The translations under genes were made by a program, and so were the position numbers. Under the pieces are notes generated by a model that was not told where the DNA came from, made no database searches, and was given only the letters and a program-made list of their open reading frames with translations. From Sulfurifustis variabilis (GTDB taxonomy: Bacteria; Pseudomonadota; Gammaproteobacteria; Acidiferrobacterales; Sulfurifustaceae), in contig NZ_AP014936.1 in the NCBI RefSeq assembly GCF_002355415.1, positions 3,509,501 through 3,573,500 of the forward strand: a DNA stretch of 64,000 bases. Reading direction: 5' to 3'. This document shows, in pieces, positions 37,046-64,000 of this stretch (positions are counted from its first letter, which is position 1; each line of letters begins with the position of its first letter).

Positions 37046-37068
37046 CCTCGCCTCCCTCTTCCCCCTCG

Positions 37069-39739: not shown

Positions 39740-39845
39740 CCTGACTCCTATATACGTGAGCGCGCCTTCGCGCGTCAGCCCGCCCGACGGGTTCGTACGA
39801 CCGGCGGTCGCACCGCTTTGCGGCGAAACCGAAAACGGGCTCGTC

Positions 39846-40493: not shown

Positions 40494-40721
40494 TGCCGTG
40501 GGTCATCCCGGTCTTTCCTGTTGTTTACGCCTGGCTCCATGAGGGGGACAGTGGGTGCGCACCGACTCGCGCGTACTGTGTTCACCCACCGGCAGGGTGA
40601 CGCCTGGGCGCGCGCGTGCGCGCACCGCGGTACGCGCGCAAGGCCGTCCGCGCGTGCGCGACAAGGAGGACCGATCGCGGTCGTGCGGGCGGACGCGGCG
40701 ACGGGCGGCGTCCGCCGCGCG

Positions 40722-41429: not shown

Positions 41430-43529
41430 CTACGGGCCGCGCGTCGGCGCGGTCTCGGAACCTTCGAAGCCGCTCACCGTCACGCTGCCCGGGTCGCCCC
41501 CCACCCGGGTCCGCGTGAGGAAGAACAGACCCCGGCTCTGGTTCCATCGCATCCAGGTGTGGCCCTCGAGGACGAGGTACGCGCGGCGGCCGTGGGCACT
41601 GGTCGCCTCGACGAGAAGGGTGTCGGTTCCGCCGTCGTACCGCGCCGTCAGGATCTCGATGGTCAGGTCGTGGCCGTTGCAGTCCTGGTCCACGCCGTCG
41701 TGCTTGATCTCCTGCGCGCCCGGATGGATGGCGGCGTCGCCGTCGTTGCAGTCCACCGTCGAGGCGTAACCGTCGGCGTCCGCGTCGATGACGGCGGGGT
41801 CGTCCTCGAGCACGGTGAGCACGGCGCCCGCGGGACTTCCGAGCGTCGCCCCGCCCGTCGGCCTGCCGAGCGTCACGTTCAGCGTCTCGTCGCCCTCGTG
41901 GGCGCCGTCATCGAGGAGCGTGACGACGAAGCTTCGGGTCGTCTCGCCGTCGCCGAAGATCAGCGTGCCCGAGGCGGCGACGTAATCGGCTCCGGCGGTC
42001 GCGGTGCCGTCGGCGGTGGCGTAATCGACCGTCACCTCGCCCGCCGAGCCGCCGGCGCGCACCACGGTCACCGTGACGCTCCCGCCGCCCTCGCCGGCGC
42101 TGTACTCCGCGGCGCCGAAGCGCAGCTGCCCGGGCGCCGGCGAGCCGGCGTTCGACACGAGCCAGTCGTAGGCCGCCTTGAGGTCGAGCAGGCCCGCGCC
42201 GTAATCGTTGTCCGCCCCGGGAGCGCCGAGATCGACCGCGGTCTCCTCGACGGCGGACTCGAGCAGCGACACGGTCGCGGGAATGCCGCGCGCCGCCATC
42301 GCGCCTTTGAGCACGGCGAGGCCCCCGGTGACGTGGGCCGCCGAGAACGAGGTGCCGGTGACCTCGACATAGGAATCCGGAAAGAGGCCGCCCAGCGTGA
42401 GGTCGGCGGTGCGCACGCCCGCGCCGGGCGCGACGAGCCGCGGGTACGTGGCGCCGTCGCACGCCGAAGGGCCCCGTCCGCTGAAGCCGCCGACCGTCCA
42501 GGAGGCGTCCACCGCCCCCACGGCCGCGGCCCCGGGGTTGTTCGACGCGCTCACGCTCGTGGCCGGTCCGGGTCCGGTGTTTCCGGAAGCGAACACCACC
42601 GCGATCTCCGACGCGCGCAGGGCCGCGATGTCGTCCGCGAACTCGGTGTCGCAGACGTTCACCGTGTTCTGCAGGTACCACGAGTTGTTGACGATGTCGG
42701 CCGCGTCGTCCGATTCCGGATCGCCGTCGGGATCGAGCGCCCACTGCAGGCCAAGGTGGATCCTGCTGAGCTGCGACTGGCCGCCGTCGTCGAAGATCTT
42801 CGCCGCGATCCATCGGGCCCCGGGCGCCACGCCGATGACGCTCCCCCCGGCATCGCCGCCCACGATGAGCCCCATCGTGTGCGTGCCGTGGCCGCTCGCG
42901 TCGTACGGGGTCGCATGCTCGCCGTTGGGATCGAACCAGCCGTTCGTTCCGCCGCGCCACTTCGGGCCGATGTCCGGGTGGTCGAGATCGACGCCCGTGT
43001 CGAGCGCCGCGACCACGACGCCGGTGCCGTCGTGGCCGTGCTCCCAGAGCTCGGGGGCGCGGATGGCCTGGACGTTCCATTGCGGAGCCGACGAGCCGCC
43101 GGCGGCTCCCGCCGGCGCCGCCACGGCGGCGTCGAGCGTGATGCGTTCCACCCCCGGCAGGCGCGCCAGCCTTTCCACCGCCGCCGCGGGGAGCGTGGCG
43201 GCCACGCCGTTGATCGTCCAGAGTTGCCTCGGGCGGCCGGGCCCGTCGCGCAGCTCAGCGCGCAGCGAGCTCTCGCAGGCTTCGGCCCGGGTCCTGAGCG
43301 CGCGGATCAGCTTTTGCCGACGCACCTTCGTGTCCCGGTCCCGGAATTGCCGCGCGTCGACCTTGCCGCCACACCGGATGATCACGTCGACCGTCTCGCC
43401 GGGACCCAGCTTCCCGAGAGCGCCCACGAGCCCGGGGTCGAGCTTGCCCGCCTGCACGACCGGTGCGCACACGAGGCAGGCGAGACCGAGGACGAGAGCG
43501 CGAAGCGTGATCGTGCGGGGCTCCCGCAT
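41430..43529 (-). CDS. Secreted S8 subtilisin-like protease with Calx-beta and MopE-like motif
   Basis: A 699-residue exported serine protease. It has a signal peptide (residues 1-27, ending APVVQA), a propeptide-like region (VAATLPAAAVERLARLPGVE), then the triad: Asp in VVAALDTGVDLDHPD (about 176), His in DASGHGTHTMG (about 213) and Ser in EVTGTSFSAAHVTGG (about 393; GTSFSAA replaces the common GTSMAAP). A Calx-beta domain follows (about 470-577), then a calcium/copper-type motif DADADGYASTVDCNDGDAA ... PGAQEIKHDG ... DQDCNG resembling the MopE metal-binding repeat, and a beta-rich tail. The start overlaps the lipoprotein stop (TGATG), so it belongs to the same operon as the copper proteins. 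Confidence 0.9.
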   Translation of the reverse strand: MREPRTITLRALVLGLACLVCAPVVQAGKLDPGLVGALGKLGPGETVDVIIRCGGKVDARQFRDRDTKVRRQKLIRALRTRAEACESSLRAELRDGPGRPRQLWTINGVAATLPAAAVERLARLPGVERITLDAAVAAPAGAAGGSSAPQWNVQAIRAPELWEHGHDGTGVVVAALDTGVDLDHPDIGPKWRGGTNGWFDPNGEHATPYDASGHGTHTMGLIVGGDAGGSVIGVAPGARWIAAKIFDDGGQSQLSRIHLGLQWALDPDGDPESDDAADIVNNSWYLQNTVNVCDTEFADDIAALRASEIAVVFASGNTGPGPATSVSASNNPGAAAVGAVDASWTVGGFSGRGPSACDGATYPRLVAPGAGVRTADLTLGGLFPDSYVEVTGTSFSAAHVTGGLAVLKGAMAARGIPATVSLLESAVEETAVDLGAPGADNDYGAGLLDLKAAYDWLVSNAGSPAPGQLRFGAAEYSAGEGGGSVTVTVVRAGGSAGEVTVDYATADGTATAGADYVAASGTLIFGDGETTRSFVVTLLDDGAHEGDETLNVTLGRPTGGATLGSPAGAVLTVLEDDPAVIDADADGYASTVDCNDGDAAIHPGAQEIKHDGVDQDCNGHDLTIEILTARYDGGTDTLLVEATSAHGRRAYLVLEGHTWMRWNQSRGLFFLTRTRVGGDPGSVTVSGFEGSETAPTRGP

Positions 43530-44068
43530 CACTGGACGATCAGCCGCTCGGCCCGGAAACCGCCGAAGGCCACGGTGACGCGGTCGCCGGCACGCGCGTG
43601 CTTCCCGGGATTGGCGAATAGCGCCGTGTAGTTGCGCCCGCGCCGGATCTGCTCGGCGGTCGTCACCGAGGAGCGCAGCGAGCCGGCCTTTTCGGTGAAC
43701 GGCACGCCGAGCTTCGCGCCGGTGCGTTCGACGATCACGTAGGGCACCGGACTGAACCGGCGCTGCACGAGCGGCGCGGCCTTCCGCGGATCGAGCACCT
43801 TGTAGCGGAAGTCGAGCGCGTAGCCCCCCGCCGTCAGCCGGATGCCGAGGAGCTTGATGCCCCACGCCCTCTCGAGCGGCGTCAGCTCCCGCTCGAGCGC
43901 AAGCAGCTCGCGCGCCTCGCGCGCCGCGGCCTCCTCCCGCGCGGCCGCGAGACGTCGCTCCGTTTCCGGGAGCGCCGACGCGTCGGGCGTCGTCGTGTGG
44001 GCACAACCGCCCGCCGCGAGGGCCGCGAGGACGGCGAGGAAGGCTGCGCGCACCGATCTTTCAGTCAT
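43529..44068 (-). CDS. Lipoprotein of unknown function in the copper-oxidase operon
   Basis: A 179-residue lipoprotein with signal and lipobox AALAAGGCAH. A long alpha-helical, coiled-coil-prone stretch (LPETERRLAAAREEAAAREA) is followed by a compact beta domain (LTAGGYALDFRYKVLD, PVPYVIVERTGAKLGVP, RAGDRVTVAFGGFRAERLIV). I do not recognise the family. It lies 57 bases after the cupredoxin-PKD gene and overlaps the protease gene by one base. A periplasmic or outer-membrane tether for the operon's exported proteins is possible (inference). Confidence 0.75.
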   Translation of the reverse strand: MTERSVRAAFLAVLAALAAGGCAHTTTPDASALPETERRLAAAREEAAAREARELLALERELTPLERAWGIKLLGIRLTAGGYALDFRYKVLDPRKAAPLVQRRFSPVPYVIVERTGAKLGVPFTEKAGSLRSSVTTAEQIRRGRNYTALFANPGKHARAGDRVTVAFGGFRAERLIVQ

Positions 44069-44125
44069 GCGTCTGCTCCAGGACGTCGACGGGCATGTCG
44101 CGGGGCCCGAGGCCGACAGCGCCCG

Positions 44126-46615
44126 CTAGAGGCAACCCCTGCACACCACCGACCTGCCGAGGACGGCGCCGCCCGGCGTGCTGAGCACGTCGACGCTGAC
44201 CACGACACCGGCGAATCCCGGGGTCGGATGATTCGACTGGTCGAAGGTCCATGCGCCGTTCGCGCCGACCACCGCGGTACCGAGCAGCGTCCCGCCGGTG
44301 TCGGGCCCGAGAAAGACGCTCACGGTGGAGCCGATCGCCGAGCTCCTTCCTTCCACGCGCCAACGGCTGGATGTCGCCACGTACTCCGCCTTCGTCACGC
44401 GGATCTCGCGGGTCACGTTCGCGGTCGCGATGCCGCTCGCGTCGGTGCCGTCGAACGCCTGATAGGTGAAGGGGAAGGTCCCTACCTTTTCCATCGGCCC
44501 GTAGCTGAAGGAACCGTCGGGGTTGAGCACGAAGTTCCGGAGGTCCTCGTCCGCGGTGACGAGCTGCGCGGTGAGCGAATCGCCGTCGGCGTCCGTATCG
44601 TTCGCGAGCACGCCGGGCGCGGCCACCGCGTAGTTGCCGACGCCGCCGCTATCGTCCGGGTTGTAGGCGTCGTTGGCGGCCACCGGCGCGGTGTTGCCCG
44701 GACTGCCCGTCAGGGTCGCGTTCGTCGTGGCCGGGGCCGAGTCGGCGTAGCCGTCGTTGACCACGAGCGTCACGACGAAGCTCGTGCCGCTGCCCTGCAC
44801 GTAGGTGTGCGTCGGCGTCGGCCCGGTCCCGGTGTTACCGTCCCCGAAGTTCCAGCTGTACGTCAGGGGATCGCCGTCGGCGTCGCTCGACGCCGTCCCG
44901 TCGAAGGTGATCGTGGTGGAGTTCGAGGCATACGGCCCGCCCGCGTTCGCCACCGGCGCCGTGTTGTCGGTCACCGTCGCGCTCGTCGTCGCCGGGGCCG
45001 AATCCTGATGGCCGTCGTTCACCGTGAGTGTGACCGTGTAGACGCCGGCCGCCGCATACGCGTGGCTCGGGGCCGCGCCGGTGCCGGTGTTGCCGTCGCC
45101 GAAGTCCCACGCATGCGCGAGCGGCTGTCCCTCCGGATCGGACGAGGCCGCGCCGTCGAACGCGACCGCGAAGCCGGTTTTGCCCGTATACGGCCCGTTC
45201 GCGGCCGCGGTCGGCGCCTGGTTGACCGCCACGGTCGCCGTCGCGTTCGCCGGTGCGGAATCGACCGTGCCGTCGTTCACGGTCAGCGTGACGGTGTAGA
45301 CGCCCGGCGCCGCGTAGGCGTGGCTCGGCGTCGTGCCGGTGCCGGTCGCGCCGTCGCCGAAATCCCAGCTGTACCCCAGCGGGTCGCCGTCGGGATCGCT
45401 CGAGCCCGAGCCGTCGAACGCGATCGGCAGGCCGGCGATGCCGCCGTAGGGCCCGCCGGCGTTGGCGATCGGCGCCGTGTTCCCGCCGGCCGGCGCGACG
45501 GCGAGACAGGTCTGCATGCCGCCGTTCATCTCGGCGGCGTCGGTCAGGCTCAACCGGCGCTCGAGGATCGCGAAGTCGCCCGCGTAGCCCGGCGTGAAGA
45601 CGATGTCGCGCGTCGAGCCGGGCATGAGCAGAGTCTGGTACTGGCGCTGCGCGTGGCCGTAGACCCTGCCGCCCTCGGCGACGACGTCCACGTGCGATCC
45701 GATCATCAGGGGCGCGAGCTCGCGCAGGCCGGCGTTGTAGAGCCGCAGCAGCACGCGCTCGCCCTCGGTGCCGGCGGCGAAGCAGTCGCTGTTCGCGGGA
45801 TCGATAGAAAGATCGATCGGGAGGCCGTCGATGTCGTAGCCGTGGAGCAGGAAGTACTTCGGGCTGTAGTAACGCGTGCTCGTCGGCGCCGGCGGCGTGC
45901 CGTACGCGCCGGTCGCGACGGCTTCGTGCAGAACGGGGTCGACCTCGCTGTAGTAGAGATCGTGCGAGGCGGCGTAGGGCACGCCGGGATAGGCCTCCCC
46001 GGCGGCGGCGTCACGCACGGCCGCGCCGTACAGGCCCATCTGCACCTGCACCTGCGGATGCGTGCCGCTCTGGTAGGTGTACGTCCCGGCCTGGAACGGA
46101 TTGCCGCGAAAGTTGTTCCAGATGTAGACCTGGCGTCCGCCGTTGGCGGCCGCCTCGCGCCCGAAGGAACGCACGCGCGCGCTCGCGCTCGGGCGCGGGC
46201 CCGTGGTGCCGTCCAGCCAGGTCGGCCCGTTGTTGTTGAGCGCGGTGAACGGCATCTCCTGTCCGGGGATCACGATCGAGGTCGGAGCCGGCAGGCCGTT
46301 GCTCAGAAAGACGCGCAGCGCGTTGCCCGCCTCGGCCGGCGCCACCGTGAGCTTCGGCCCGGGCACGGTCGGCGAGGGCAGCGCCGTGATGCACGCGAGC
46401 CGCGCGGCGAGCCCCGTCGTCGCATAGCAGGCGCCGCCCGGGTCCTCGACGTATCCCCACATCGGCACGGTCGTGCCGTCCGGCATCGTCATGTCGAACG
46501 GCTTGGCGGCGAGGTAGTAGTCCACCGCCGCCGCGGGTCCGGCGGCGAGACCCAATGCGCCGAACAGCAGCAGGCCGGGGAGCCGGAATGTTCTCGTCTG
46601 TTGTCCAGTAGGCAT
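44126..46615 (-). CDS. Cupredoxin-like protein with three PKD domains and a cadherin-like tail
   Basis: A secreted protein of 829 residues with a signal peptide ending AAGPAAAVDYY. Residues 60-365 are two multicopper-oxidase-like cupredoxin folds, but the copper ligands are missing: the site aligned with WHCHVEATEH of the third paralogue reads TYQSGTHPQVQVQMG. Three PKD repeats start near 381, 467 and 550 (NxAPxANAGGPY ... WDFGDG ... HAYAxxGVYTVTLTVNDG pattern), followed by a cadherin-like/Ig-like region near 640 (AANDAYNPDD, APGVLANDTDADGDSL) and a beta-rich terminal module ending VVCRGCL. It is probably structural or binding rather than catalytic. It is 18 bases downstream of a second cupredoxin gene in one operon. 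Confidence 0.88.
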   Translation of the reverse strand: MPTGQQTRTFRLPGLLLFGALGLAAGPAAAVDYYLAAKPFDMTMPDGTTVPMWGYVEDPGGACYATTGLAARLACITALPSPTVPGPKLTVAPAEAGNALRVFLSNGLPAPTSIVIPGQEMPFTALNNNGPTWLDGTTGPRPSASARVRSFGREAAANGGRQVYIWNNFRGNPFQAGTYTYQSGTHPQVQVQMGLYGAAVRDAAAGEAYPGVPYAASHDLYYSEVDPVLHEAVATGAYGTPPAPTSTRYYSPKYFLLHGYDIDGLPIDLSIDPANSDCFAAGTEGERVLLRLYNAGLRELAPLMIGSHVDVVAEGGRVYGHAQRQYQTLLMPGSTRDIVFTPGYAGDFAILERRLSLTDAAEMNGGMQTCLAVAPAGGNTAPIANAGGPYGGIAGLPIAFDGSGSSDPDGDPLGYSWDFGDGATGTGTTPSHAYAAPGVYTVTLTVNDGTVDSAPANATATVAVNQAPTAAANGPYTGKTGFAVAFDGAASSDPEGQPLAHAWDFGDGNTGTGAAPSHAYAAAGVYTVTLTVNDGHQDSAPATTSATVTDNTAPVANAGGPYASNSTTITFDGTASSDADGDPLTYSWNFGDGNTGTGPTPTHTYVQGSGTSFVVTLVVNDGYADSAPATTNATLTGSPGNTAPVAANDAYNPDDSGGVGNYAVAAPGVLANDTDADGDSLTAQLVTADEDLRNFVLNPDGSFSYGPMEKVGTFPFTYQAFDGTDASGIATANVTREIRVTKAEYVATSSRWRVEGRSSAIGSTVSVFLGPDTGGTLLGTAVVGANGAWTFDQSNHPTPGFAGVVVSVDVLSTPGGAVLGRSVVCRGCL

Positions 46616-46633
46616 GATTCGTTCCTCCCCAGC

Positions 46634-47983
46634 TCAGGGAATCGGCGTGCCCGGCGGCTCGATGATGACGAAGGTGAGCATCCCGCCCGGGAAGATGTCG
46701 AAATTGGTGAGCTCTTTTTCGTTGTGCGAGTGCCACATGAAGAAGAGGCCGCCGTTCAGGTTCAAACCGCCCTCGCCCGGCGGCAGTTGCCCGAAGTGGC
46801 CGAGGAACGGGCTGCCGCTGTACCAGCCGCCGAAGCTCACGTCCTGCAGCCCGGGGAGCACGACCTTGCTGTCCAGCCGCACGCCGTGATAGGCGCAGTC
46901 CTCCCCGGTCGCCGGATCGATGTTGTCCGGACCCGCGCCGGTGCAGGCGTGCGCGAAGCCGGCCTCGTTCGGATCGCCGTAGATGTCCCAGCCGAGGCCC
47001 TTGCTCGTCCAGCGGAAGATCGCGTCGATCGTCCCGCCCGGCGTGGGCGTGATGGTGAAGTCCGCGACGCCGAGATCCGGTCCCGCTCCCGGCGCGCTCT
47101 CGAGCATGCGGCCGTCGCGCGCGACGATCAGCGAGTGCGCGCCGTGCGGATGGAACGCGTGCTGGTTGCGCCCGAGGTTGACGAGGCGGAGCAGCACCTT
47201 CTCGCCCGGGCGCGTGCGCGCCAGCGCGCCGTAGGGCTGGTTGGGGTGCCAGCCGACGTTGTCCGGCGACAGCGTGTCGACGCCGTTGCGGCCGTTGATG
47301 AACCAGAAGACCGGAAACGCGGTCGTGTTGTCGATGAGCTCCGGAAAACCGAAGTCCACGAGATCGTGGATGAAGGGATCCATCTCCGAGAGCAGGAAGA
47401 GGTACTCGTGGTCGTAGGCGGTGCCGGCGTGCCCGTACGCGGTGCGCTTCGCCGGGTCGCTCTGGTCGAAGCCGGCCGGCCGCACGATGATCGCCCCGTA
47501 GAGCCCCATCTCCACCTGCAGCTCGGTGTTCGTGCCGCTGTGGTAGACGTACGTCCCGGGCTGCGCCGCGGTGAACGCGTAGCTCACGGTGTTCGATCCA
47601 CCGCACGGCGCCGTGTCCTCGGGCGAGCATGCCTCGCGCGTGAGCAGCCCGGGCGCGCCGCCGCTCGCCGTCACCTGGCCCTGGCCGGGGAACACGATCG
47701 AGACGCGCTGCGCGAGCTGGTTGGTGAGGTTCACCGTGACGGTGTCGCCCTGGTTGACGATCAGCGTCGGGCCCGGGAGCTGCACCGCGTTCGTGCCGTT
47801 GCCGTACGCCCAGATCAGGATGCTGTCGCCGTCGGGCGTCGACAGGCTCGCCGATCCGGTCGTGAGGTCGAACGTGGGCCCCGTGATGCCCGGGACGACC
47901 GCGTTGGCCTGGGCCGCGGCGGCGGCGAGCGCCAGCGCGAGACCCGCAACGAGGCGCTTCGCAATAGTCGTCTGCCTGTTCAT
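46634..47983 (-). CDS. Multicopper-oxidase-family protein, HSHN variant
   Basis: An exported two-cupredoxin-domain protein of 449 residues (signal peptide ending AAAAAQANAV). Copper-site positions are partly kept. Domain 1 has TYVYHSGTNTELQVEMG with one His. Domain 2 has NQHAFHPHGAHSLIV near residue 275, equivalent to the HPHLHG motif, and the C-terminal FMWHSHNEKELTNFDIFPGG near 415, where the type 1 Cys of HCH is Ser. Such HSHN forms occur in a known bacterial subgroup of unclear activity. Typical MCOs oxidise metals, phenols or nitrite-like substrates. It lies 30 bases downstream of the canonical-looking paralogue. Confidence 0.88.
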   Translation of the reverse strand: MNRQTTIAKRLVAGLALALAAAAAQANAVVPGITGPTFDLTTGSASLSTPDGDSILIWAYGNGTNAVQLPGPTLIVNQGDTVTVNLTNQLAQRVSIVFPGQGQVTASGGAPGLLTREACSPEDTAPCGGSNTVSYAFTAAQPGTYVYHSGTNTELQVEMGLYGAIIVRPAGFDQSDPAKRTAYGHAGTAYDHEYLFLLSEMDPFIHDLVDFGFPELIDNTTAFPVFWFINGRNGVDTLSPDNVGWHPNQPYGALARTRPGEKVLLRLVNLGRNQHAFHPHGAHSLIVARDGRMLESAPGAGPDLGVADFTITPTPGGTIDAIFRWTSKGLGWDIYGDPNEAGFAHACTGAGPDNIDPATGEDCAYHGVRLDSKVVLPGLQDVSFGGWYSGSPFLGHFGQLPPGEGGLNLNGGLFFMWHSHNEKELTNFDIFPGGMLTFVIIEPPGTPIP

Positions 47984-48013
47984 GTCCGTTCTCCTGTCGG
48001 CTGGCGCATCGCC

Positions 48014-49336: not shown

Positions 49337-49404
49337 GGTCTCAGTCTCCGTTTCGCCCGAGGGCGACGCGGCGGAAGGCCTCCCGCCCTCCCGCCGCGTC
49401 GCCG

Positions 49405-52400
49405 CTACGGCTGGTACTCGTCCGCGCCGGTGTCCGGCGCCGCGATCGTGTCGCCGTTTCCGTCCACCGGCCGCGCCTGGCCGTCCACGTCCGTGCCCAG
49501 CAGACCGCCGGTGGCCGAACCGCTGGGCGGCGCGTCCACGGCGGGCGACGTCATGCCGATGTGGTAGTCGCCCGTCACCCCGAGCGGCGTGTAGTAGACC
49601 TGCACGAAGTTGCCGCCCTCGTCCGCGGCGGCGGCCGTCGTGAGCGCGTTGAAATACGGCGCCACGAACTGCGGATCGGCGAACTGGTTGTTGGTGCCCG
49701 CGTAGTTGCAGGCCGCCGGATCGGACCCGGGCGCCGCTTCCGTCAGGATCGACTGGACGGGCGCGAGGCAGGCGCCCGCGACGCCGACGACCCCGAGGTC
49801 CCAGTACGCGCCGCCCGGGTTCGGGAGCAGGTCGGGCGCGGTGTCGTCGTCCCAGTGGAACGAGCGGTTCTGCCAGAAGATGTTTCGCCGCAGCGCGAGC
49901 GGCTGCGACCAGGCCGGGCTGCCGGCGGGCAGCACCGCGTTGAGGCCGAGGCTGTTCGCGCGCGACAGCAGGCCGGCGACGGTCGGCGTGGTCGGATCGC
50001 CGAGGCCCCCTTCGAACGCGAACGTGGAGGTCGCGGTGCTGTCGTTGCGCGCGAGGGTGTTGTGGATGATCTGCACCCGCACCGCGTCCTGCAGCGCGAT
50101 GCCGGCGCCGCCGAGCCCCGAGACGTTGTTGACGATCAGGTTGTTGAACACACGCACCAGGTGCCAGCTGGCGTTGTTGCCGGGGCTCGCGGCGACGTCG
50201 TCGCCGTTCACGTTGCGCAGCGCGATGGCGCCGCCGTCGGCGGCCCCGCCGAGGTTGCCCTGGAGCAGGTTGCGGTCGATCGTGACGTTGCCGCTGCCGA
50301 GCGTGAGGCCGGAGGCGCCCTGGCCGAACACGTCGGGCTCGCCCGCGACCTCGATGCCGCCGCCCCCGCCGCCGATGCCGAGCCCCGCGCCGGGCTGATC
50401 GCCCTGGAATACTTCGTTGAACACGATCGCGTTGCCCGCGATCGTGCCGTTGTCGCTCAGACCGCGATGGGCGATGGCGCCGCCGCCGCTGCGGGCGAAG
50501 TTGCCGCACAGGCTGTTGTCGTCGATGCGGTAACCGTTCGCGCCCTGGTAGATCGCGATCCCGCCGCCGGTCTTGTAACTGCCGTTCTCCCGGATCTGGT
50601 TGTGGCGGATGTCGACCTGCGGGTTCGGGCTGTCGGCGACCGCGACGCCGCCGCGCGCGAAGGCCACGACGGTCGGGTTGCCGAGGCGGATGCCGCCGCC
50701 GAGATTCCCGGCATTGCTCTGCAGGATGTTGTTGCTGACGAGCAGCCGGTTGGCGTAGGCGTTGGCGTAGATCGCCCCGCCGAGATCCGCGAGCGTGATC
50801 TTGAAGCCGTCGATGCGCGCCCGCAGCTCGAGGTCCTCGCGGTCGCCCGAGTAGCCGAAGCGGTTGGGCCCGGTCGCCGGCGGCGCGACGAAGATGCCGG
50901 GCGCCTCGCCGTCCTTCAGGAAGAACTCCGGCGCCACGCCCACCTGCTCGGGCAGGAGACCGATCACGCTGTCGGCTCGATCGCCGTCGCCGTTCGGATC
51001 GGAGAGCTGGCCGATCTTCTGCCGCCACAGCACGAGCGGGTTGGCGAACGCCGGGCCGGCGCTGAAGTGGCTCGCCCAGATCAGCGTGCTGTTGGCGCCC
51101 GCGCCCTGGAGCTTCACGCGCTTCCAGACGACGGGCAGCTCGCGGTAGACGCCCGGATCGACCAAGATCAGATCGCCGGCGCTCGCCGCGTCGATCGCCG
51201 ACTGGATCGTCGGGTAGACCTGGGTCGGGCCGACGCGCAGCACCGCGTAAGGCAACCCGCCGGGCGGCTCGACCGTGACCGTCACGCCCACCTCGGTCGC
51301 GTTGCCGTTGTCGCCGCGCGTGACCGAGAGCTGGCCGGTCTCGAGCCCCACGGGCAGGGGGTTCGGAACGTTGACCACGATCTGGCTCGCGCTCCAGGAG
51401 GCGATCGCGGCCGGGTCGAAGCAGTAGCTGCCGATGCAGACCGAGCCCTTGACCGGACCGAAACCGACCTCGCGCGTGATCATCTCCGGCTCGGTGGGCG
51501 GGTCGTCGGGGAGCCCGTCGTCGTTGGCGTCGCCCGGATAGTCCGGATTGAAGATCCGCAGACTGCGCATCGAGCGGATGCGCAGCGTGTCGCCGGCGCG
51601 CACGAAGGCGGGGGCGTTGCCCGCGGTCAGGTTCATCACGTCGCGGATCACCGGCTCGCCCGCGGGCACCTCGCAGCTCAAGGTCTGCTGCAGGGCGCCG
51701 ACGAACGCCGCCTGGCGGATCACCGGCGTGTCGAGATAGGTCGTGCGCCCCGGCTCGAAGTTGAACGTGTAGCAGGTGGTGCTGTACTGCGTGCGGAAGC
51801 GCGGATCGACGACGAACGTGCCCGGGTTCGCGGGATCCTCGATCGGGCCCGGATGGTTCAGGCAGAAGTGGTGCATCTTCGGACCGACGCCGCTCGGCGT
51901 CGGCAGATTGATGGCGTAGGTCGACGGCGCGAGCCAGTTGTAGGCGCCCCACTCGTCGCCGTAGGTGCGGATGATCTCGCGGCCGCTGTAGTCGACCACC
52001 GAGATGGACATCCACGGCGGTGAAAACTTTTCGGTGAAGCTCGGCTTGCCGGGCGCGATCTCGTTCGCGAAATCGTCGGTGATGAGCCCGACGGCGCGCG
52101 CCGCCTTCGGCACGTCGGTGAACAGGAAGAAGTCCGTCGCCGCGTTCTGGCCGGAGCCGAGGTCGACCTTCTTGCGATCGCACAGGGGCCGCGTGTCGCC
52201 GGCGAAGGGCGCCGCGTTGTCCGGGCTGTCCGGATCGACGCCGGGCAACGGATTGCCGCCGGCGTCGGTCAGGAAGCTGAAGAGCGGCGGCACCTCGCGC
52301 GGCTCGCCCACGCACTTGGCCGGCAGGATCGCCGGGATCGGCGTCGGGCCGAAGTCGACGTTGCGGTCCTCCTCCTTGACGAGCTTGTAGCCGGGCGGCG

Positions 52401-54933
52401 GGATCGTCTCGACGACGTACGTGCCCGGCACCAGCAGCGGGTCCTCGGGGCCGAAGGCGTAGCCGCCGTCGAACACGCCGGGGCGCACCTGGTTCCAGGT
52501 GCGCAGTCCCTCGGCGCACTGCGCGATCGGCACGTCGGCGCCGTGAATCTCGAGCGGATCGACGTCGCCGCGGCAGCCCTCCGGCAGGCTGTCGTCCCAG
52601 CTGTCGGTGTGCGCCACGCGGATGGCGTCGCCCAAATCGAACGCGCCGTCGCCGTCGCGGTCGATGTCTTCCGGCCCTTTCGCGCCGCCCTCGGACCAGC
52701 CGATCGGGTGGTTGTCGACGTCGGCGTAGACCGGCGTGTACGGGAAGGTCGCGCCGGCGTCCGGATTGCCCGCGGCGTCGACCGGGTCGGGAATGCCGTC
52801 GCCCACCTCGCCCGCCGTCGCCTCCGGACAGGCGGGAGAGACGGCCGGGCCGCCGTTCGAGTTGCACACCACGTCGCGGTAGAGGTTCACCTGCACGCGC
52901 GGGATGCCGGGCTCCCACTCCTCGCCGGCGGCGAAGCGCGGGTCGTCCTCGGCGCGCGTGGTCGCGTAGAACACGACGCCGGAGATGCCGCCGTTGTTGT
53001 TGTACACGCCGTCGCCCGTGGCGGCGTCGGTACATTCGGCAGGCACCTGCGCGCCGGTCACGCAGCGGTCGGTGTCGCCCGGTCCCGGGAAGTCGTCGTA
53101 GGGGGCGACGTTGCGGTCGGCCGTGTCGTACGGCGCCTTGCCCCACTGGAAGCGCGTGTTCTGCCCCGCGAAGATCTGGAACGCCTGCGTCAGCACGACG
53201 CCCGGCTCGACGCGCAGGTCGGGATCGGTGCTCACGTTCGCCGGGTCGCTGCCGTCGGTGGCCTGCTGCTGCGGATTGCGTTTCCCCTCGCCGAACTCGT
53301 CGTCGGTGGTCGGGCCGCCTTCGTCGACCACGAGCTCGAGGCCCGTGGCCTGCAGGCGCGCGAAATCCACCTCGGCCACCTGCCAGTGGAAGAAGGGAAA
53401 GATCGCCTGGAACGGCACGAACCCTTCGGTGTCGGTGGGGAACGCCTTGTAGATCGTGCCGTCGCGGAAGCGCAGGTTGACGTTCTGCTCGGGAATGCCC
53501 GGCTCGTCGGGGTCGCGCACCGCGTTCTTGTTCAGATCGGCGTAGACGTTGTGCTCGTGCACGCCGAACCACATGGGCGTCGCGACGTTGCCGAGATCGA
53601 GCGAGCCGCCGGTGGTCTCCTCGACGATGACCGTGTTGAACGAGATGATGTGCAGCAGCGAGATGTCCCACACCACGAGCTGATAGGTTCCGGGCGGGAC
53701 GTTCGGGATCGTGAAGTTCCCGGTTTCGTTCTCGCACAGCCCGGCCCACACCGCTTCCGGGAACCCCGCCTCCATCCGGTTCAGGCCGACGAGGCACCGC
53801 TCGCCGACGGCCTCGGCCTCGGGCGGAGGACCGTCGAAGAAGGTGATGGCGGGCGGGCGCGAGAGATGGCCCTTTCGAACCTGGCCCGTGACCGTCGTCA
53901 CCGGCCCGCCCGGCGGCGCGACGGTCGCCAGCCGGTCGAACTCCTTCGTGAAGCCGTAGAACACGTGCCAGAACGGCGGGCCGAACTCCACCAGGAACGG
54001 CGGCTCGTTCGGGCGCACCCAGGCGTCGATGGTCTTCGTGCCCTCGATGGTGGTGGTCTGGTGCCACTTCACCGGGTTGCCGCCGGCGTCCGTGGTCGGC
54101 GGCTCGATCTCGACGCCGTACTTGTTCGGGGCGAGGTACCTGATCGTGACCTCGCCGTTGGCCGGCGTGATGAAGTCGCCCGCGCCCGGCGCCAGCACGA
54201 CCGGCTCGCAGGTCTCCGGGTCGAACACGAACGGCTCGCCCGGATCGTGCGCGCCGTTGCCGTTGATGTCCGTGAACTGATAGGTCGTCCCGAGCGTGTT
54301 GCCGAAGGCGTCCTGCACGATGTCGCCCCCGACGTCCATGAGCGTGACGGTGAAGCCCTCCATGGTCTCGAGGTACGGGTGCGTCGAGCTCGCGGGATCG
54401 ATCTCGGCGACGTCCGGCGCGTTGTTGAGCGGCAGGATGTCGTGGAAGACCTTGACGGTGATCTGCGCGGTTTCGATCGGGTTGCGGCGCACGTGCACCG
54501 TCGCCGTCTTGTTCGGCTCGGTGGTGATGTCGACCGCCGTGCCGCCCATGTCGAACGTGCCGCTGCACGAGGAACGGTCGCCGAAGGGCAGCACCGAGAC
54601 GAAATAGCGCCCCGGCGCGAGCGGCACCGGGCCGCCGGGCAGTTCGACCGTGTCGATCGTGGCGGAACTGCCGGTGGATTCGCCTGCCGCCACGACGCGC
54701 GCATGACTGCGGTGGATACTGATCGACAGCGAGTTGTTGTTGACGTCGGCGTCGACCGGCTTGTGGACGCCGGGCTCGGGCGGGTGGGTGTTGTCCTCCT
54801 CGAGCAGCCACTTGAAGCCGGTCACCGGGTTCCCGTTCTCGTCGACCACGTTGACGGTGAAGGCCTCGGCGGCGCCCGTGACCGCGCCGGTGCACAGCGC
54901 CACGGCAACCGCTAGCAGCTTGCTCGCTTTCAT
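49405..54933 (-). CDS. Giant secreted beta-rich protein with SdrD-like and right-handed beta-helix regions
   Basis: A protein of 1842 residues beginning MKASKLLAVAVALCTGAVTG, a signal peptide ending AAEAF; GGGAG-like ribosome sequence precedes the ATG at 54933. Regions in order: carboxypeptidase-regulatory/fibronectin-like beta repeats; calcium-binding loops of SdrD-B type (DINGNGAHDPGEP near 226, ADLNKNAVRDPDEPGIP near 458); further acidic DxDGDG loops; an IPT/TIG-like segment near 1158-1221; and from about 1240 a pectate-lyase-like beta-helix (YPTIQSAIDAASAGDLILVD, then many NNxI..N rungs), ending APDTGADEYQP. No catalytic motif is recognised. It is first in an operon with three copper-oxidase-like genes and may be their surface scaffold (inference). 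Confidence 0.9.
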   Translation of the reverse strand: MKASKLLAVAVALCTGAVTGAAEAFTVNVVDENGNPVTGFKWLLEEDNTHPPEPGVHKPVDADVNNNSLSISIHRSHARVVAAGESTGSSATIDTVELPGGPVPLAPGRYFVSVLPFGDRSSCSGTFDMGGTAVDITTEPNKTATVHVRRNPIETAQITVKVFHDILPLNNAPDVAEIDPASSTHPYLETMEGFTVTLMDVGGDIVQDAFGNTLGTTYQFTDINGNGAHDPGEPFVFDPETCEPVVLAPGAGDFITPANGEVTIRYLAPNKYGVEIEPPTTDAGGNPVKWHQTTTIEGTKTIDAWVRPNEPPFLVEFGPPFWHVFYGFTKEFDRLATVAPPGGPVTTVTGQVRKGHLSRPPAITFFDGPPPEAEAVGERCLVGLNRMEAGFPEAVWAGLCENETGNFTIPNVPPGTYQLVVWDISLLHIISFNTVIVEETTGGSLDLGNVATPMWFGVHEHNVYADLNKNAVRDPDEPGIPEQNVNLRFRDGTIYKAFPTDTEGFVPFQAIFPFFHWQVAEVDFARLQATGLELVVDEGGPTTDDEFGEGKRNPQQQATDGSDPANVSTDPDLRVEPGVVLTQAFQIFAGQNTRFQWGKAPYDTADRNVAPYDDFPGPGDTDRCVTGAQVPAECTDAATGDGVYNNNGGISGVVFYATTRAEDDPRFAAGEEWEPGIPRVQVNLYRDVVCNSNGGPAVSPACPEATAGEVGDGIPDPVDAAGNPDAGATFPYTPVYADVDNHPIGWSEGGAKGPEDIDRDGDGAFDLGDAIRVAHTDSWDDSLPEGCRGDVDPLEIHGADVPIAQCAEGLRTWNQVRPGVFDGGYAFGPEDPLLVPGTYVVETIPPPGYKLVKEEDRNVDFGPTPIPAILPAKCVGEPREVPPLFSFLTDAGGNPLPGVDPDSPDNAAPFAGDTRPLCDRKKVDLGSGQNAATDFFLFTDVPKAARAVGLITDDFANEIAPGKPSFTEKFSPPWMSISVVDYSGREIIRTYGDEWGAYNWLAPSTYAINLPTPSGVGPKMHHFCLNHPGPIEDPANPGTFVVDPRFRTQYSTTCYTFNFEPGRTTYLDTPVIRQAAFVGALQQTLSCEVPAGEPVIRDVMNLTAGNAPAFVRAGDTLRIRSMRSLRIFNPDYPGDANDDGLPDDPPTEPEMITREVGFGPVKGSVCIGSYCFDPAAIASWSASQIVVNVPNPLPVGLETGQLSVTRGDNGNATEVGVTVTVEPPGGLPYAVLRVGPTQVYPTIQSAIDAASAGDLILVDPGVYRELPVVWKRVKLQGAGANSTLIWASHFSAGPAFANPLVLWRQKIGQLSDPNGDGDRADSVIGLLPEQVGVAPEFFLKDGEAPGIFVAPPATGPNRFGYSGDREDLELRARIDGFKITLADLGGAIYANAYANRLLVSNNILQSNAGNLGGGIRLGNPTVVAFARGGVAVADSPNPQVDIRHNQIRENGSYKTGGGIAIYQGANGYRIDDNSLCGNFARSGGGAIAHRGLSDNGTIAGNAIVFNEVFQGDQPGAGLGIGGGGGGIEVAGEPDVFGQGASGLTLGSGNVTIDRNLLQGNLGGAADGGAIALRNVNGDDVAASPGNNASWHLVRVFNNLIVNNVSGLGGAGIALQDAVRVQIIHNTLARNDSTATSTFAFEGGLGDPTTPTVAGLLSRANSLGLNAVLPAGSPAWSQPLALRRNIFWQNRSFHWDDDTAPDLLPNPGGAYWDLGVVGVAGACLAPVQSILTEAAPGSDPAACNYAGTNNQFADPQFVAPYFNALTTAAAADEGGNFVQVYYTPLGVTGDYHIGMTSPAVDAPPSGSATGGLLGTDVDGQARPVDGNGDTIAAPDTGADEYQP

Positions 54934-55118
54934 GGCTTTTGCTCCCGTCATTGGAATCGCGTGGCGCGGGCCGGTCGGCCGCGCGCGGAGACGCTCCACG
55001 CGCGTGCCGTGGCGCCCGTTCGCCGGGCCCGAAGGTCCGTGCCTCCCGATCGCACACTGCTGCGGAGGCTAGCGGTGCGGCAGAAAGAAAACGGGTGAGT
55101 GAAGACGGTATTTCAGGG

Positions 55119-55133
55119 GTAGGGGCGCCCTAC
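55119..55133. promoter_or_regulatory. Dyad GTAGGG-GCG-CCCTAC in the divergent giant-gene/sco region
   Basis: A perfect inverted repeat, GTAGGG and CCCTAC with a 3-base spacer, in the 288-base gap between the divergent giant-protein and first sco genes. Its location fits an operator shared by both transcripts. It shares CCTAC/GTAGG half-sites with the palindrome at 41374-41389. Confidence 0.45.
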
Positions 55134-55221
55134 TCGGGAGGGGGCGGAGGCAGTATCACCCGACGCAGCCGGGCGAACCCGCGCGTTGGCGCACGGCGAG
55201 CGTGGCGTGTACAACGCGCAC

Positions 55222-55827
55222 ATGCCGTGCGTGAAGAGAGACGTGCGCCTGCGCGCGCCCTGCCTGTCGGCGATGTGGCTCGCCGTGCTGCTGGTCGGCG
55301 CGGCGTCCCCCGTCCCTGCGCTCGCCGACCCGCGGGGCGCGAGCCGCTTCGGCGGCGACTTTACGCTCACCGACCACCACGGTCGGACGTTCTCGCTCGC
55401 GGACGCCCGCGGCAAGGTCGTGCTGCTTCACTTCGGCTTCACGTCCTGCGCCGACAGCTGCCCGACGACGATGGTGAAAGTGGCCGCCGCCCTGCGCGAG
55501 CTCGGCGCGCTCGCCGGGCACGTGCAGCCGCTGCTGGTCACGCTGGATGCGAAGCGGGACACGCCCGCCGTGCTCCGGCGTTACGTCGCCCACTTTCATC
55601 CCGCCTACCTCGGCCTGACGGGCACCCAGGAGGCGGTCGAGGCCGTGGCCGGGCTCTACCGCACGCCGGTCCACGTGCACCCGCCGGACGCAAACGGCTC
55701 CTACGCGGTCGACCACGGGTCCGGTCTCTTTCTCATCGACACCGAGGGCCGTTTGGCGCGGACGGTTTTCTTCGACTCCCCGCCCGAGCGGATCGCCCAT
55801 CACGTGAGACTGCTGCTGACCCGCTAG
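55222..55827 (+). CDS. Sco1/SenC/PrrC-family copper chaperone
   Basis: A 201-residue exported thioredoxin-fold protein. It has a signal or anchor segment at residues 15-35 (AMWLAVLLVGAASPVPALA) and the copper-binding CxxxC in FGFTSCADSCP (Cys76, Cys80) with the partner His in VDHGSGLFLID. Other family blocks are TDHHGRTFSLADARGKVVLL and VTLDAKRDTPAVLRRYV. Sco proteins deliver copper to the CuA site of cytochrome oxidase or act as thiol reductases; here the partner may be the divergent copper-oxidase operon. The upstream TTG at 55186 is an unlikely start. Confidence 0.92.
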   Translation: MPCVKRDVRLRAPCLSAMWLAVLLVGAASPVPALADPRGASRFGGDFTLTDHHGRTFSLADARGKVVLLHFGFTSCADSCPTTMVKVAAALRELGALAGHVQPLLVTLDAKRDTPAVLRRYVAHFHPAYLGLTGTQEAVEAVAGLYRTPVHVHPPDANGSYAVDHGSGLFLIDTEGRLARTVFFDSPPERIAHHVRLLLTR

Positions 55828-55979
55828 CCGCCTCCTCGCCCGCTTCCTCGCGAATACCGTGTCGCCCTGCGAGAAATGGGGCATGGACCTACCCTGCCCC
55901 CGGCGACGGGCCGCTACGATGAACCTCGGCGGATCACGAGCCGGCCGGCGAACGAAGGGCCGGAGGAAGGGGGCGGTCG

Positions 55980-56642
55980 ATGACGACGACGGGAGGACGC
56001 GCGGGCACGCGCGCAGGGCGGCACGCGGTCGCGGGCGCGCTTCTCGCGGCCACGCCGTTCCTCTGCGCCGCGGCGGGCGAACCGGTTTCCGGCGATGCGC
56101 ACGCGCATCACGCCCATCTTCGGCACGACGCGCAGGCGCAGCGGGCGGGCAGCTATACCCGATCGGTGCACTTCTATCGGGTCCCCGACGTCACGCTCGT
56201 CGACATGGCCGGTTCCCGCGTCGCGCTGGCCTCGGCGCTCGACGCCGGGACACCCGTCTTCCTGAACTTCATCTTCACGAGCTGCGCGACGATCTGTCCC
56301 GTCATGAGCGCGACGTTCGGGCAGGTGCAGGAGCAGCTCGGCCCCGAGGGGGAGCAGGTCCGGATGATCTCCATTTCCATCGATCCCGAGCACGACACGC
56401 CGGAGCGGCTGCGCGCCTACGCGACCCGGCACCGCGCCGGCTCCCGATGGCGGTTCCTGACCGGCGAGGCCGCGGACATCGTCGCCGTGCAGAAGGCCTT
56501 CGACGCGTATCGCGGCGGCAAGATGGGTCACGAGCCGTTCACCTTCCTGCGCGCCTCGGCCGGCGGGCCCTGGGTCCGGCTCGACGGTCTCGGCAGCGCG
56601 ACGGACCTCGTCGCCGAGTACCGGCGTCTCGTCGCGCGGTGA
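55980..56642 (+). CDS. Second Sco1/SenC-family copper chaperone with His-rich N-terminus
   Basis: A 220-residue Sco-family protein, 152 bases after the first. Its signal peptide (AVAGALLAATPFLCAAAGEP) is followed by a histidine-rich stretch, GDAHAHHAHLRHD, that could hold copper. The CxxxC is in IFTSCATICPVMS (Cys102, Cys106), the Sco His is probably in GKMGHEPFTFLR, and SISIDPEHDTPERLRAY is a family block. The ATG at 55980 has GGAGGAAGGGG in front. It differs from the first copy in sequence and His content, so the two probably serve different targets. It lies 13 bases before the cytochrome gene. Confidence 0.93.
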   Translation: MTTTGGRAGTRAGRHAVAGALLAATPFLCAAAGEPVSGDAHAHHAHLRHDAQAQRAGSYTRSVHFYRVPDVTLVDMAGSRVALASALDAGTPVFLNFIFTSCATICPVMSATFGQVQEQLGPEGEQVRMISISIDPEHDTPERLRAYATRHRAGSRWRFLTGEAADIVAVQKAFDAYRGGKMGHEPFTFLRASAGGPWVRLDGLGSATDLVAEYRRLVAR

Positions 56643-56655
56643 CGGCGCCACGCCG

Positions 56656-58296
56656 ATGTCCCGGCTCGCCGCCAGACAACCGGGCCTCGTCGCCGCTCTC
56701 GCGGCGGCGGGCGCGATCGCGGCCGGCTGCGTCATGGCGACGCGCGCGCACGGCGGCGAGCCGAACGCCCTCGGCGAACGCCTGTACCGCCAGGGCATTC
56801 TCGCCTCCGGCGAACCGGTGCGCGCCAGGCTGATCGGCGACGTACCGGCGCAGGGCGCGCAGCTCGTGTGCGCCGGCTGCCACGGGCGCAGCGGCCTCGG
56901 CTCGGGCGAGGGCCGGATCTTCATGCCGCCGGTCACAGGGACCATTCTCTACCGCCCGCGCGAGATCCGGCGCAAGCAGCTCTACGACGCGCGCACCCTG
57001 CGGCCGGCCTACACGGACGCGACGCTCGCGCGCGCGATCCGCGACGGCGTGGATCCCGCCGGCCGCCCGCTCGATCCCATGATGCCGCGCTACGCGTTGA
57101 GCGACGCCGATCTCGCCTCGCTCATCGCCTACCTCAAGACGCTTTCGTCGGCGCCGTCTCCCGGCGTCACGGAGTCGCACATCCGCTTCGCCACGGTGAT
57201 CGCCGGAGAGGTAGCCGGCCGCGCGCGCAAGTCGGTGCTGGACGTGCTCGAAGCCTTCGTCGAATCGAAGAACGCCGACACCCGCCGCGAGACCACGCTC
57301 GCGCGCCGGAGCCCGTTCCACAAGGCGGCGCACTACGAGGCCTACCGCAAGTGGGCGCTGGACGTGTGGGAGCTCGAAGGTCCGCCCGATGCCTGGCCCG
57401 CCCAGCTCGAGGCGCACTACGCGCGCGAACCGGTGTTCGCGGTGATCGGCGGCGTCGGCGCCGGCTCCTGGGCGCCCGTACACGCCTTCTGCGAGCGCAA
57501 CGAGGTGCCCTGCCTGCTCCCGAACACGGACCTGCCCGTCCTCGCGGAGCGCGACTTCTACACGCTGTACTTCACGCGCGGCATGGCGCTCGAGGCGGAG
57601 GTCCTCGCCCGGCACCTGGACGACCGGCGGCCCGCGGCCCCGATCGTGCAGGTCTATCGTGCCGAACCGCGCGGCGCGGCCGCGGCCGCCGCCCTGCGAA
57701 GCGCGCTCGCCTCCCGCGGCGCGCGCGCGCTCCGCGACGAGGTGATCGAGCCGGGCGAACCCGCGGGCCCGGCCCTCGGGCGGGCGCTGGCGAACGGGAC
57801 GGGTCCGGCGCTCGTGCTGTGGCTCGACGACCGCGACCTGCCTCCCCTCGACCGCCTCGCCGGCGCCGAACGCGTCTACCTCTCGAGCACGCTCGCCGGC
57901 GGGCTGCCGCGCGAGATCCCCCGGGACCTCGACGGCAGGGTCTACGCGGTTCATCCCTACCATCTGCCGGAGGAAGCGGCGTCCCGTCTCCGGGCCATGG
58001 CCTCCTGGCTGCGCGGCAGGCGCGTGGCGGTCGGCGACGAGCGCCTGCAGGCGAACACGCTCTTCACGGCCAACCTCGTCGCGCAGGCGCTGAAGCACGT
58101 CCGCAGCAACTTCCACCGCGACTACTTCGTGCAACGCATCGAGCACATCTTCGACGGCATGGTGACGCCGGCCGCCTATCCGAAGGCGAGCCTCGGCCCG
58201 AACCAGCGCTACGCGTCGAAGGGCGCGTACCTCGTGCGCGCCGTGCGGAACGCGAACGGCGAGGTCGACGCCGAGAGCGAGTGGGTGGTGCCTTGA
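56656..58296 (+). CDS. Cytochrome c fused to a periplasmic-binding-protein-like domain
   Basis: A 546-residue exported protein; the N-terminus LVAALAAAGAIAAGC could be a signal peptide or lipoprotein signal. Residues 40-158 form a class I cytochrome c domain with heme motif CAGCH (72-76) and probable axial Met in LDPMMPRYALSDADLASLIA (142/143). From about 172 to the end is a type 1 periplasmic-binding-protein fold (VTESHIRFATVIAGE, EPVFAVIGGVGAGSWAP, EVPCLLPNTDLPV, RVYLSSTLAGGLP, ANTLFTANLVAQALKHV). The fusion suggests redox-coupled ligand sensing or electron transfer. It is co-oriented with two sco genes and convergent with gspD. Confidence 0.88.
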   Translation: MSRLAARQPGLVAALAAAGAIAAGCVMATRAHGGEPNALGERLYRQGILASGEPVRARLIGDVPAQGAQLVCAGCHGRSGLGSGEGRIFMPPVTGTILYRPREIRRKQLYDARTLRPAYTDATLARAIRDGVDPAGRPLDPMMPRYALSDADLASLIAYLKTLSSAPSPGVTESHIRFATVIAGEVAGRARKSVLDVLEAFVESKNADTRRETTLARRSPFHKAAHYEAYRKWALDVWELEGPPDAWPAQLEAHYAREPVFAVIGGVGAGSWAPVHAFCERNEVPCLLPNTDLPVLAERDFYTLYFTRGMALEAEVLARHLDDRRPAAPIVQVYRAEPRGAAAAAALRSALASRGARALRDEVIEPGEPAGPALGRALANGTGPALVLWLDDRDLPPLDRLAGAERVYLSSTLAGGLPREIPRDLDGRVYAVHPYHLPEEAASRLRAMASWLRGRRVAVGDERLQANTLFTANLVAQALKHVRSNFHRDYFVQRIEHIFDGMVTPAAYPKASLGPNQRYASKGAYLVRAVRNANGEVDAESEWVVP

Positions 58297-60574: not shown

Positions 60575-60621
60575 CGTCTTGTCGTCGTTATTGTGCGTTT
60601 CCGCTCCCTCGAGCCCGCCGT

Positions 60622-63840: not shown

Positions 63841-64000
63841 GGCGGCACGCTCGCCTTGGGCGCCATCGTCAGCTCCTCCCGCACGTCCGCTCCCGCGCGC
63901 TCGAACCGCAGCCGCAACCGCACGAGGCGCGGCAGCTCGTCCTCGCGATCCCATCGCGAAACCCACTGCGGCGGCGGCCGATCGGGCTCCGCGCGACCGA
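63837..64000 (-). CDS. gspJ: Type II secretion minor pseudopilin GspJ, C-terminal part
   Basis: Partial gene cut by the right edge. The last 53 codons read RPPPQWVSRWDREDELPRLV then RLRLRFERAG, matching the conserved end of GspJ, where a Trp-x(4-8)-LPRxVxL strand precedes the stop. The TGA overlaps the gspK start. Its position before gspK in a J-K-L-M order supports the call. The rest of the gsp operon is presumably beyond the window. Confidence 0.8.
   Translation of the reverse strand, partial: GRAEPDRPPPQWVSRWDREDELPRLVRLRLRFERAGADVREELTMAPKASVPP

Follow-up and report, generated by a model that had tools for sequence, protein, structure and literature searches.

Copper ligands of a multicopper oxidase appear divided between two proteins in a conserved operon of Sulfurifustis variabilis

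The stretch analysed here, referred to as the window, comprises 64,000 nucleotides of the Sulfurifustis variabilis genome (NZ_AP014936.1, positions 3,509,501 to 3,573,500). It contains a minus-strand operon encoding a giant exported protein, three cupredoxin proteins related to multicopper oxidases (MCO1, MCO2 and MCO3), a lipoprotein and an S8 subtilase, divergent from genes for two Sco copper chaperones and a cytochrome c fusion protein (Table 1). A preliminary description made from the DNA letters had proposed this arrangement, and all nine genes were located among the open reading frames (ORFs) of the 64-kb window at the places and on the strands it gave. Gaps of 68, 30, 18 and 57 bases also agree with it, but the last is −4 bases with the GTG start and −1 only with the next ATG. 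All nine N-termini contain a hydrophobic stretch in a simple hydropathy window, in line with the export signals claimed for nearly all of the products, and an AAGGC lipobox can be seen by eye in the lipoprotein. The copper ligands kept by MCO1 and MCO2 are complementary, which suggests that these proteins are two parts of one enzyme.

Table 1. Genes of the island and its flank in window coordinates, with tagged reading frames of three other loci in their own coordinates
Feature	Position	Strand	Remarks
Giant scaffold protein, exported	49405..54951	-	1848 aa; SdrD_B/carboxypeptidase-regulatory-like N-terminal part; possible right-handed beta-helix C-terminal part
MCO1, two-domain cupredoxin protein	48014..49336	-	full type-1 set and one trinuclear half, both in domain 1; domain 2 ligands lost
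MCO2, two-domain cupredoxin protein	46634..47983	-	other trinuclear half, in domain 2; domain 1 ligands lost
MCO3, cupredoxin paralogue without copper ligand sets	44126..46615	-	followed by three PKD, Big_9 and a C-terminal module; probable anchor subunit
Small conserved lipoprotein	43529..44068	-	no Pfam/NCBIfam match
S8 subtilase, exported	41430..43532	-	Calx-beta domain and MopE-type metal-binding motif
Sco1, SCO1/SenC copper chaperone	~55222..55827	+	Pfam
Sco2, SCO1/SenC copper chaperone	55980..56642	+	Pfam
MofC-like cytochrome c and periplasmic-binding-protein-like fusion	56656..58296	+	one CxxCH motif
Type II secretion genes GspD, GspM, GspK	58358..63999	-	possible export route
Tagged ORFs, L069	12592-13623, 14362-16035, 16237-17778
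Tagged ORFs, L070	12593-13609, 14221-15639, 15815-17395
Tagged ORFs, L081	12499-13569		also its S8

These genes form a conserved unit, a point on which we are almost certain. Across 31 surveyed loci (L054 to L083 and L096, drawn from sampled genomes and named records that may overlap, and some cut short by contig or locus ends), MCO2 follows MCO1 immediately in 29 of the 29 loci with room for it, and MCO3 comes next in 27 of 27, a count that includes a weak hit at the contig end in L060 which was not entered in the MCO3 alignment. Homologues of the giant are present in 27 of the 31 loci, of the lipoprotein in 18 and of the S8 protease in 14. The operon occurs in Pseudomonadota, Thermodesulfobacteriota, Planctomycetota and Myxococcota (four phyla, named as in the tree tool). 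The preliminary description had offered recurrence of the order giant-MCO1-MCO2-MCO3-lipoprotein-S8 as a test of the unit, and this order does recur in all four phyla; because it is kept across them, chance is ruled out. The Sco and cytochrome fusion genes had been counted into the same unit, and they are indeed linked in several lineages, but Sco2 was found in only 8 and the fusion in only 7 of the 31 loci, some of them truncated.

Among named genomes, 25 loci were found by scanning. Their hosts include Thiohalomonas, Thiorhodococcus, Chromatiaceae, Desulfobulbaceae, Desulfobacteraceae, Geothermobacter and Phycisphaerae, and four of the loci are divergent ones from tubeworm endosymbionts. Strong MCO1 matches (44-60% identity) are present in 6 of 273 other genomes of a class sample, with weak ones in 3 more, and an MCO1-type match in 1 of 397 other genomes of a phylum sample. 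Among 59 related genomes, 32 have an MCO2 match, with identity never above 42% and covering only part of the protein. Most of these matches are three-domain-like MCOs or members of shorter two-gene pairs, so the operon is no general feature of the family. Three-domain-type MCOs also lie near the operon in L069 (18096-20462) and L081 (16295-18733), and the one in L081 shows weak CopB-like similarity at its C-terminus.

The central evidence comes from the copper ligands, counted by position in aligned sets of MCO1, MCO2 and MCO3. The counts leave out the unsplit chains of L084 to L087 described below; those for MCO2 also leave out L078 and L083, which end inside MCO1, and those for MCO3 additionally L066 and L072, which end inside MCO2. 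Domain 1 of MCO1 carries HxxHxH and HCHx5H in 34 of 34 sequences and the methionine in 33 of 33, making the type-1 set of His, Cys, His and Met complete, while in domain 2 both HxH positions of the first motif are lost (0/33, with the leading histidine in 4/33), as is the final HxH (0/32). MCO2 is the reverse: domain 1 lacks HxxHxH (0/32) and both the cysteine and second histidine at the HCH position (0/31 each), while domain 2 keeps HxxHxH in 31 of 31 and HSHxExE in 29 of 29. In MCO3 neither domain holds a set. HxxHxH of domain 1 is absent (0/29), as are the HCH cysteine and second histidine (0/29, the first histidine remaining in 6); of the two domain 2 histidines after the leading one, the first occurs in 0 and the second in 1 of 27, and none of the 27 has the final HxH.

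The motifs kept by MCO1 and MCO2 line up with the first and second domain, respectively, of a single solved enzyme, 3g5w, which, like 2zwn, we take to be a type C two-domain MCO. As described in the available text of two papers, two-domain MCOs are trimers in which the trinuclear cluster lies between domains of neighbouring protomers (PMC13151041; PMC6650940). The cluster is coordinated by residues of both protomers, and type C enzymes are those whose N-terminal domain holds the type-1 copper (PMC13151041). Because the trinuclear site of such enzymes lies between protomers, MCO1 domain 1 and MCO2 domain 2 would provide one complete type-1 plus eight-histidine set, each ligand being assigned by analogy. 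We therefore consider it probable that one active site is divided between MCO1 and MCO2. The “three multicopper-oxidase-like proteins” of the preliminary description are better described as one ligand set divided over two proteins together with a ligand-free paralogue, and the idea of three independent oxidases was dropped because of the ligand pattern. As the trimers of two-domain MCOs share sites between subunits, MCO1, MCO2 and MCO3 are best read as a heterotrimeric ring that would have one live and two dead interfaces.

AlphaFold models were made of a read-through MCO1-MCO2-MCO3 trimer from L070 (27 rows; predicted local distance difference test, pLDDT, 70; predicted template modelling score, pTM, 0.62) and of joined MCO1 and MCO2 from the window (29 rows; pLDDT 73, pTM 0.63). 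Both fold as two-domain MCOs with 2zwn and 3g5w as best matches (Z 28), superposing over 265-274 residues at 2.0-2.8 Å, where the ends of the aligned ranges may fall in the next joined chain. The trimer model also superposes on the three-domain laccase 2xu9 over 382 residues at 2.9 Å, with end residues in MCO2 and MCO3; this alignment, for which only the end residues are given, may reflect contact between the subunits. Ceruloplasmin, factor VIII and MnxG ranked high in Foldseek and were rejected as structural matches, as they gave no superposition.

Related forms, unsplit or with the same split in two genes, suggest how such a division might have arisen. INTERMEDIATE forms are found in the four tubeworm-endosymbiont loci (L084 to L087), where both ligand halves stand in one chain, with HTIHLHG and HCHVEASEHITMGM in domain 1 and WHIHGAHF in domain 2; L084 to L086 also have a final HSHND, while the ORF of L087 loses its end. 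A cytochrome fusion and Sco2 lie about 6-7 kb away in L087. In L084 (9824-17501) the unsplit MCO is followed by genes that by eye resemble TolC- and CusA-type efflux proteins. A second group comprises 15 two-gene pairs, with the repeated regions L013/L090, L016/L091 and L026/L093 counted once. Exactly one partner has the HCH...H..M motif in all 15, and the other has HxH(G/A) in 14 and, by the pattern used, the final HxH in 13. Two such split pairs occur in the host genome itself (G000:C1:1181572-1183516 and 3293821-3295447; L088 and L089); the 18-19.5 kb retrieved for them contain no match to the giant. The pair search also returned L035, a single MCO-like ORF without motifs. In L092 (352-7434) a split pair lies beside a 1530-aa protein that looks by eye like a subtilase with many PKD repeats.

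In an unrooted tree of 56 rows, ligand columns included, MCO1, MCO2, MCO3 and both pair partners each fall on one side of a branch. MCO3 is placed beside MCO2 (support 100/99), and MCO2, MCO3 and the domain-2-keeping partners lie together on one side (99/96). This topology agrees with a single division and a subsequent duplication that produced MCO3. A more detailed path, in which a homotrimeric oxidase was duplicated and its site split by complementary loss, leaving an obligate heterotrimer with one catalytic interface in three and a third subunit that became the tether of the giant, has in our judgement an even chance of being correct. Were it so, the unsplit chain and the two-gene pairs would represent earlier stages on that route, and laboratory experiments could repeat this ring-splitting ratchet with the enzyme active site as readout.

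The operon has a second layout, which also occurs on plasmids. Of 72,556 plasmid records, 2982 have an MCO2 match and 8 are covered to at least 80% of its length, two from Cupriavidus and six from Paraburkholderia; the same 8 hold the cytochrome fusion over at least 80%, about 12 kb away. The other matching plasmids belong mostly to Klebsiella and other genera and were regarded as carrying generic MCO matches. Two plasmid loci were read, one on the Cupriavidus metallidurans CH34 megaplasmid (L097) and one from Paraburkholderia (L098). In layout A, as in the window, the gene for the giant comes first. In layout B (L059, L061, L062, L097 and L098), MCO1 and MCO2 are followed by MCO3 and the giant as a single ORF, and this holds for five of the five loci with the order MCO1-MCO2-MCO3-giant. 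Their stop-to-stop frames span 2481-2744 codons, those of L059 and L062 being still open at the locus end. A lipoprotein homologue, the cytochrome fusion and Sco2 lie downstream on the same strand in L097, and also downstream, with other genes interspersed, in L098, where two similar proteins between the lipoprotein homologue and the fusion (6326-7990) look LolA-like by eye.

The single ORF bears out the earlier proposal that the copper proteins belong with the giant scaffold, and because MCO3 forms one ORF with the giant in five loci, its role as the anchor subunit is somewhat more probable than not. MCO3 also has a C-terminal stretch in common with the giant or the S8 protease of the same locus in L054, L056, L063, L073, L075 and L076, although in L063 it covers only 22 residues. 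A comparison of tails, from which the MCO1-MCO2 pair and any ORF reaching the end of its locus were excluded, gave matches in 7 of 154 pairs from the same locus, one of them the L061 fusion, against 18 of 4756 pairs from different loci; several of these 18 are between cupredoxin proteins or close relatives. The tails of MCO3 and the S8 protease in the window have no similarity. MCO3 thus looks like the subunit that has a surface route or scaffold in common with the neighbouring products. A short FPWxxFxP-type C-terminal tag is present on MCO3 and the S8 protease in L069, L070 and L081, and on a beta-propeller (SBBP) protein in L069 and L070 (Table 1); in these Desulfobulbaceae-type loci it looks like a C-terminal sorting signal.

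Pfam profiles agree largely with the domains named in the preliminary description. MCO1 and MCO2 match Cu-oxidase families, the protease matches S8, Calx-beta and Cu-binding_MopE, and both Sco proteins exceed the curated SCO1/SenC cut-off (133.7 and 80.2 against 22.8 bits). The exceptions are all below threshold. MCO3 matches PKD and Big_9, with Cu-oxidase only as a sub-threshold trace. In the giant, SdrD_B lies above its cut-off, whereas the beta-helix claimed for it reaches 23.2 against 25.9 bits as a right-handed beta-helix match and leaves a NosD trace of 28.4 against 300 bits; a profile of its C-terminal part matched no solved structure at E 0.01. The cytochrome fusion scores above the cut-off for Cytochrom_C (34.2 against 21.3 bits) and below that for Peripla_BP_6 (21.4 against 31.7 bits), so that the MofC-like label is tentative. 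Among solved structures, its profile matched only two cytochrome subunits of sugar dehydrogenases.

The preliminary description knew of no named system with this exact set, yet a close counterpart is in print. Sideroxydans lithotrophicus ES-1 has a cluster, Slit_1812-1818, with three cupredoxin proteins, a SCO1/SenC protein and a MofC-like protein; two of the cupredoxins have MCO motifs, and the third, which is larger, lacks them and is described with adhesin- and polysaccharide-lyase-like domains (PMC5566968, PMC12016527, in the text available). Layout B resembles it in composition, larger third protein included, as judged from the published description. Two MCO-motif proteins, a larger motif-free one, SCO1/SenC and a cytochrome, the set that marks a Slit-type cluster by the available text of PMC12016527, are all present in the window too. 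The same text names Paraburkholderia as a holder of similar clusters, and L098 consists of MCO1, MCO2, MCO3-giant, a small protein and the cytochrome fusion. The window differs from Slit_1812-1818 in having the giant as a separate first gene and a lipoprotein-S8 pair after the cupredoxins. We infer that the two are the same system.

Complementary active-site halves are not described for the Slit cluster in the available text of PMC5566968 and PMC12016527, and none of the open-licence papers listed by searches for a heteromeric or divided MCO describes one, judging by titles and the beginnings of abstracts. The complementary split of copper ligands thus appears to be new, while the three-cupredoxin cluster is already in print. 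Among better known enzymes, type C two-domain MCOs are similar in that MCO1 and MCO2 have two cupredoxin domains with type-1 ligands in domain 1 of MCO1; unlike those homotrimers, whose single chain holds both trinuclear halves, the halves here lie on different chains and no MCO1 (0/33, 0/32) or MCO2 (0/32) holds both. Six-domain MCOs such as ceruloplasmin and MnxG likewise have six cupredoxin domains and a single trinuclear site, as the proposed ring would, but each is a single chain whereas here there are three separate genes and a model that does not superpose. The OmpB/MofA clusters of Geobacter and Leptothrix also encode an extracellular MCO with MofC-like cytochrome neighbours and, in some, SCO1/SenC, but according to the available text of PMC5566968 they hold a single MCO gene.

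On balance we favour a proposal in which the operon products assemble as one exported, surface-held, heteromeric multicopper oxidase of two-domain subunits, most likely an MCO1-MCO2-MCO3 ring on the giant. MCO1 domain 1 would give the type-1 copper and four trinuclear histidines and MCO2 domain 2 the other four, leaving the remaining two ring interfaces dead. MCO3, predicted to be copper-free, would tether the ring to the giant, covalently in layout B (Cupriavidus, Paraburkholderia), and elsewhere would hold it to the surface through lineage-specific C-terminal modules. The Sco proteins would load copper, the S8 protease and lipoprotein may act in maturation or attachment, and the MofC-like cytochrome would exchange electrons with the periplasm. 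Gene order, complementary ligand conservation, fusions and tree are observed; assembly, stoichiometry, anchor role, copper occupancy, electron path and substrate are what we infer from them. Extracellular oxidation of a metal or mineral, or else electron transfer, is by analogy the most likely function of the complex. Based on the Sideroxydans proteome and the published OmpB/MofA neighbourhoods, an extracellular reduced metal or mineral is the most likely substrate, Fe(II) first, although iron or a mineral is in itself a tentative assignment that we would put at about one chance in three.

Several observations weigh against this proposal. Most of the 31 loci yielded no Sco or cytochrome gene; L064, L065, L067, L069, L070 and L081 have 8.5-10 kb on each side of MCO1 without either, and the Phycisphaerae loci L065 and L067 have room for an S8 protease but lack one (planctomycete L077 has it), which argues against one fixed set. 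L058, with 6.3 kb upstream of MCO1, has no giant. Ligand loss is not total, as MCO2 retains the first histidine of the domain 1 HCH in 12 of 31 sequences and MCO3 the leading domain 2 histidine in 19 of 27. The models are middling, with the HSH stretch of MCO2 below pLDDT 50, and ceruloplasmin, although matched in sequence order, does not superpose (template modelling score ~0.2, root-mean-square deviation ~34 Å). L019, from the pair search, has one MCO-like ORF without the motif and no partner was found. The lifestyle of Desulfobulbaceae and Geothermobacter makes an O2-reducing oxidase unexpected. In these hosts the operon may instead serve to defend against O2, or may work in the direction of metal reduction, which the available text of PMC5566968 reports for OmpB.

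A different account of the operon would make MCO1 a blue-copper carrier only, with MCO2 and MCO3 structural, no trinuclear site, and a conduit running from the mineral through the type-1 copper of MCO1 to the cytochrome. The complete type-1 set of MCO1 and the cytochrome fusion adjoining in several lineages would suit it, and several hosts belong to groups known as anaerobes, yet a mere type-1 carrier would have no need of the trinuclear-type histidines, which never vary in domain 1 of MCO1 or in domain 2 of MCO2, so that we regard this account as unlikely. Copper detoxification, by an exported cuprous oxidase or a copper-binding surface layer, seems to us somewhat less likely again. The Sco proteins and the MopE motif, the presence of the cluster on the C. 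metallidurans megaplasmid, the CusA-type-pump-like genes (by eye) behind the unsplit form of L084, and the three-domain MCOs near the operon in L069 and L081, with the weak CopB-like match of L081, all point towards it; against it, no copper exporter or sensor appeared among ten neighbour ORFs scanned with Pfam, most neighbours lying outside that scan, and the Sideroxydans relatives respond to solid iron according to the available text of PMC12016527. Ordinary paralogue decay, with MCO1 and MCO2 acting alone in unrelated ways, is very improbable. Inactive cupredoxin domains are common in the superfamily, but decay would have to leave halves that are invariant and complementary in the loci examined, keep MCO1 and MCO2 adjacent in every locus with room, and repeat the same pattern in the two-gene pairs.

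Copper-based extracellular electron transfer has few defined systems. Reading the cupredoxins as halves of one enzyme would explain why they come in threes and predicts that none works alone, and it points to the residues and pairs concerned. It would also make the operon a clear example of ring paralogues sharing out one active site between them, with putative intermediate forms still alive. A related cluster is present in the proteome of a magnetite-oxidising bacterium, where Slit_1816-1818 are all more abundant on magnetite than on Fe(II)-citrate, without a mechanism in the available text of its published account (PMC12016527).

The host genome is a single contig of 3.96 Mb with 13 places matching Cu-oxidase_3, and the cytochrome fusion has a single match in it and is thus the only copy. 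Type II secretion genes lie directly beyond the island, as the preliminary description had noted, and the specific tie to type II secretion was dropped after a secretin match was found in only 2 others of 33 loci. Window ORFs at 39084-41120 (678 aa) and 35723-37216 (497 aa) are putative genes with no Pfam match at E 0.001. A PAS-HisKA_3 histidine kinase is encoded near the operon at 37867-39468, and relatives match in 6 of 33 other loci (L054, L057, L071, L078, L080 and L098). This suggests that a two-component regulator is linked with the operon, although kinases of this type are common.

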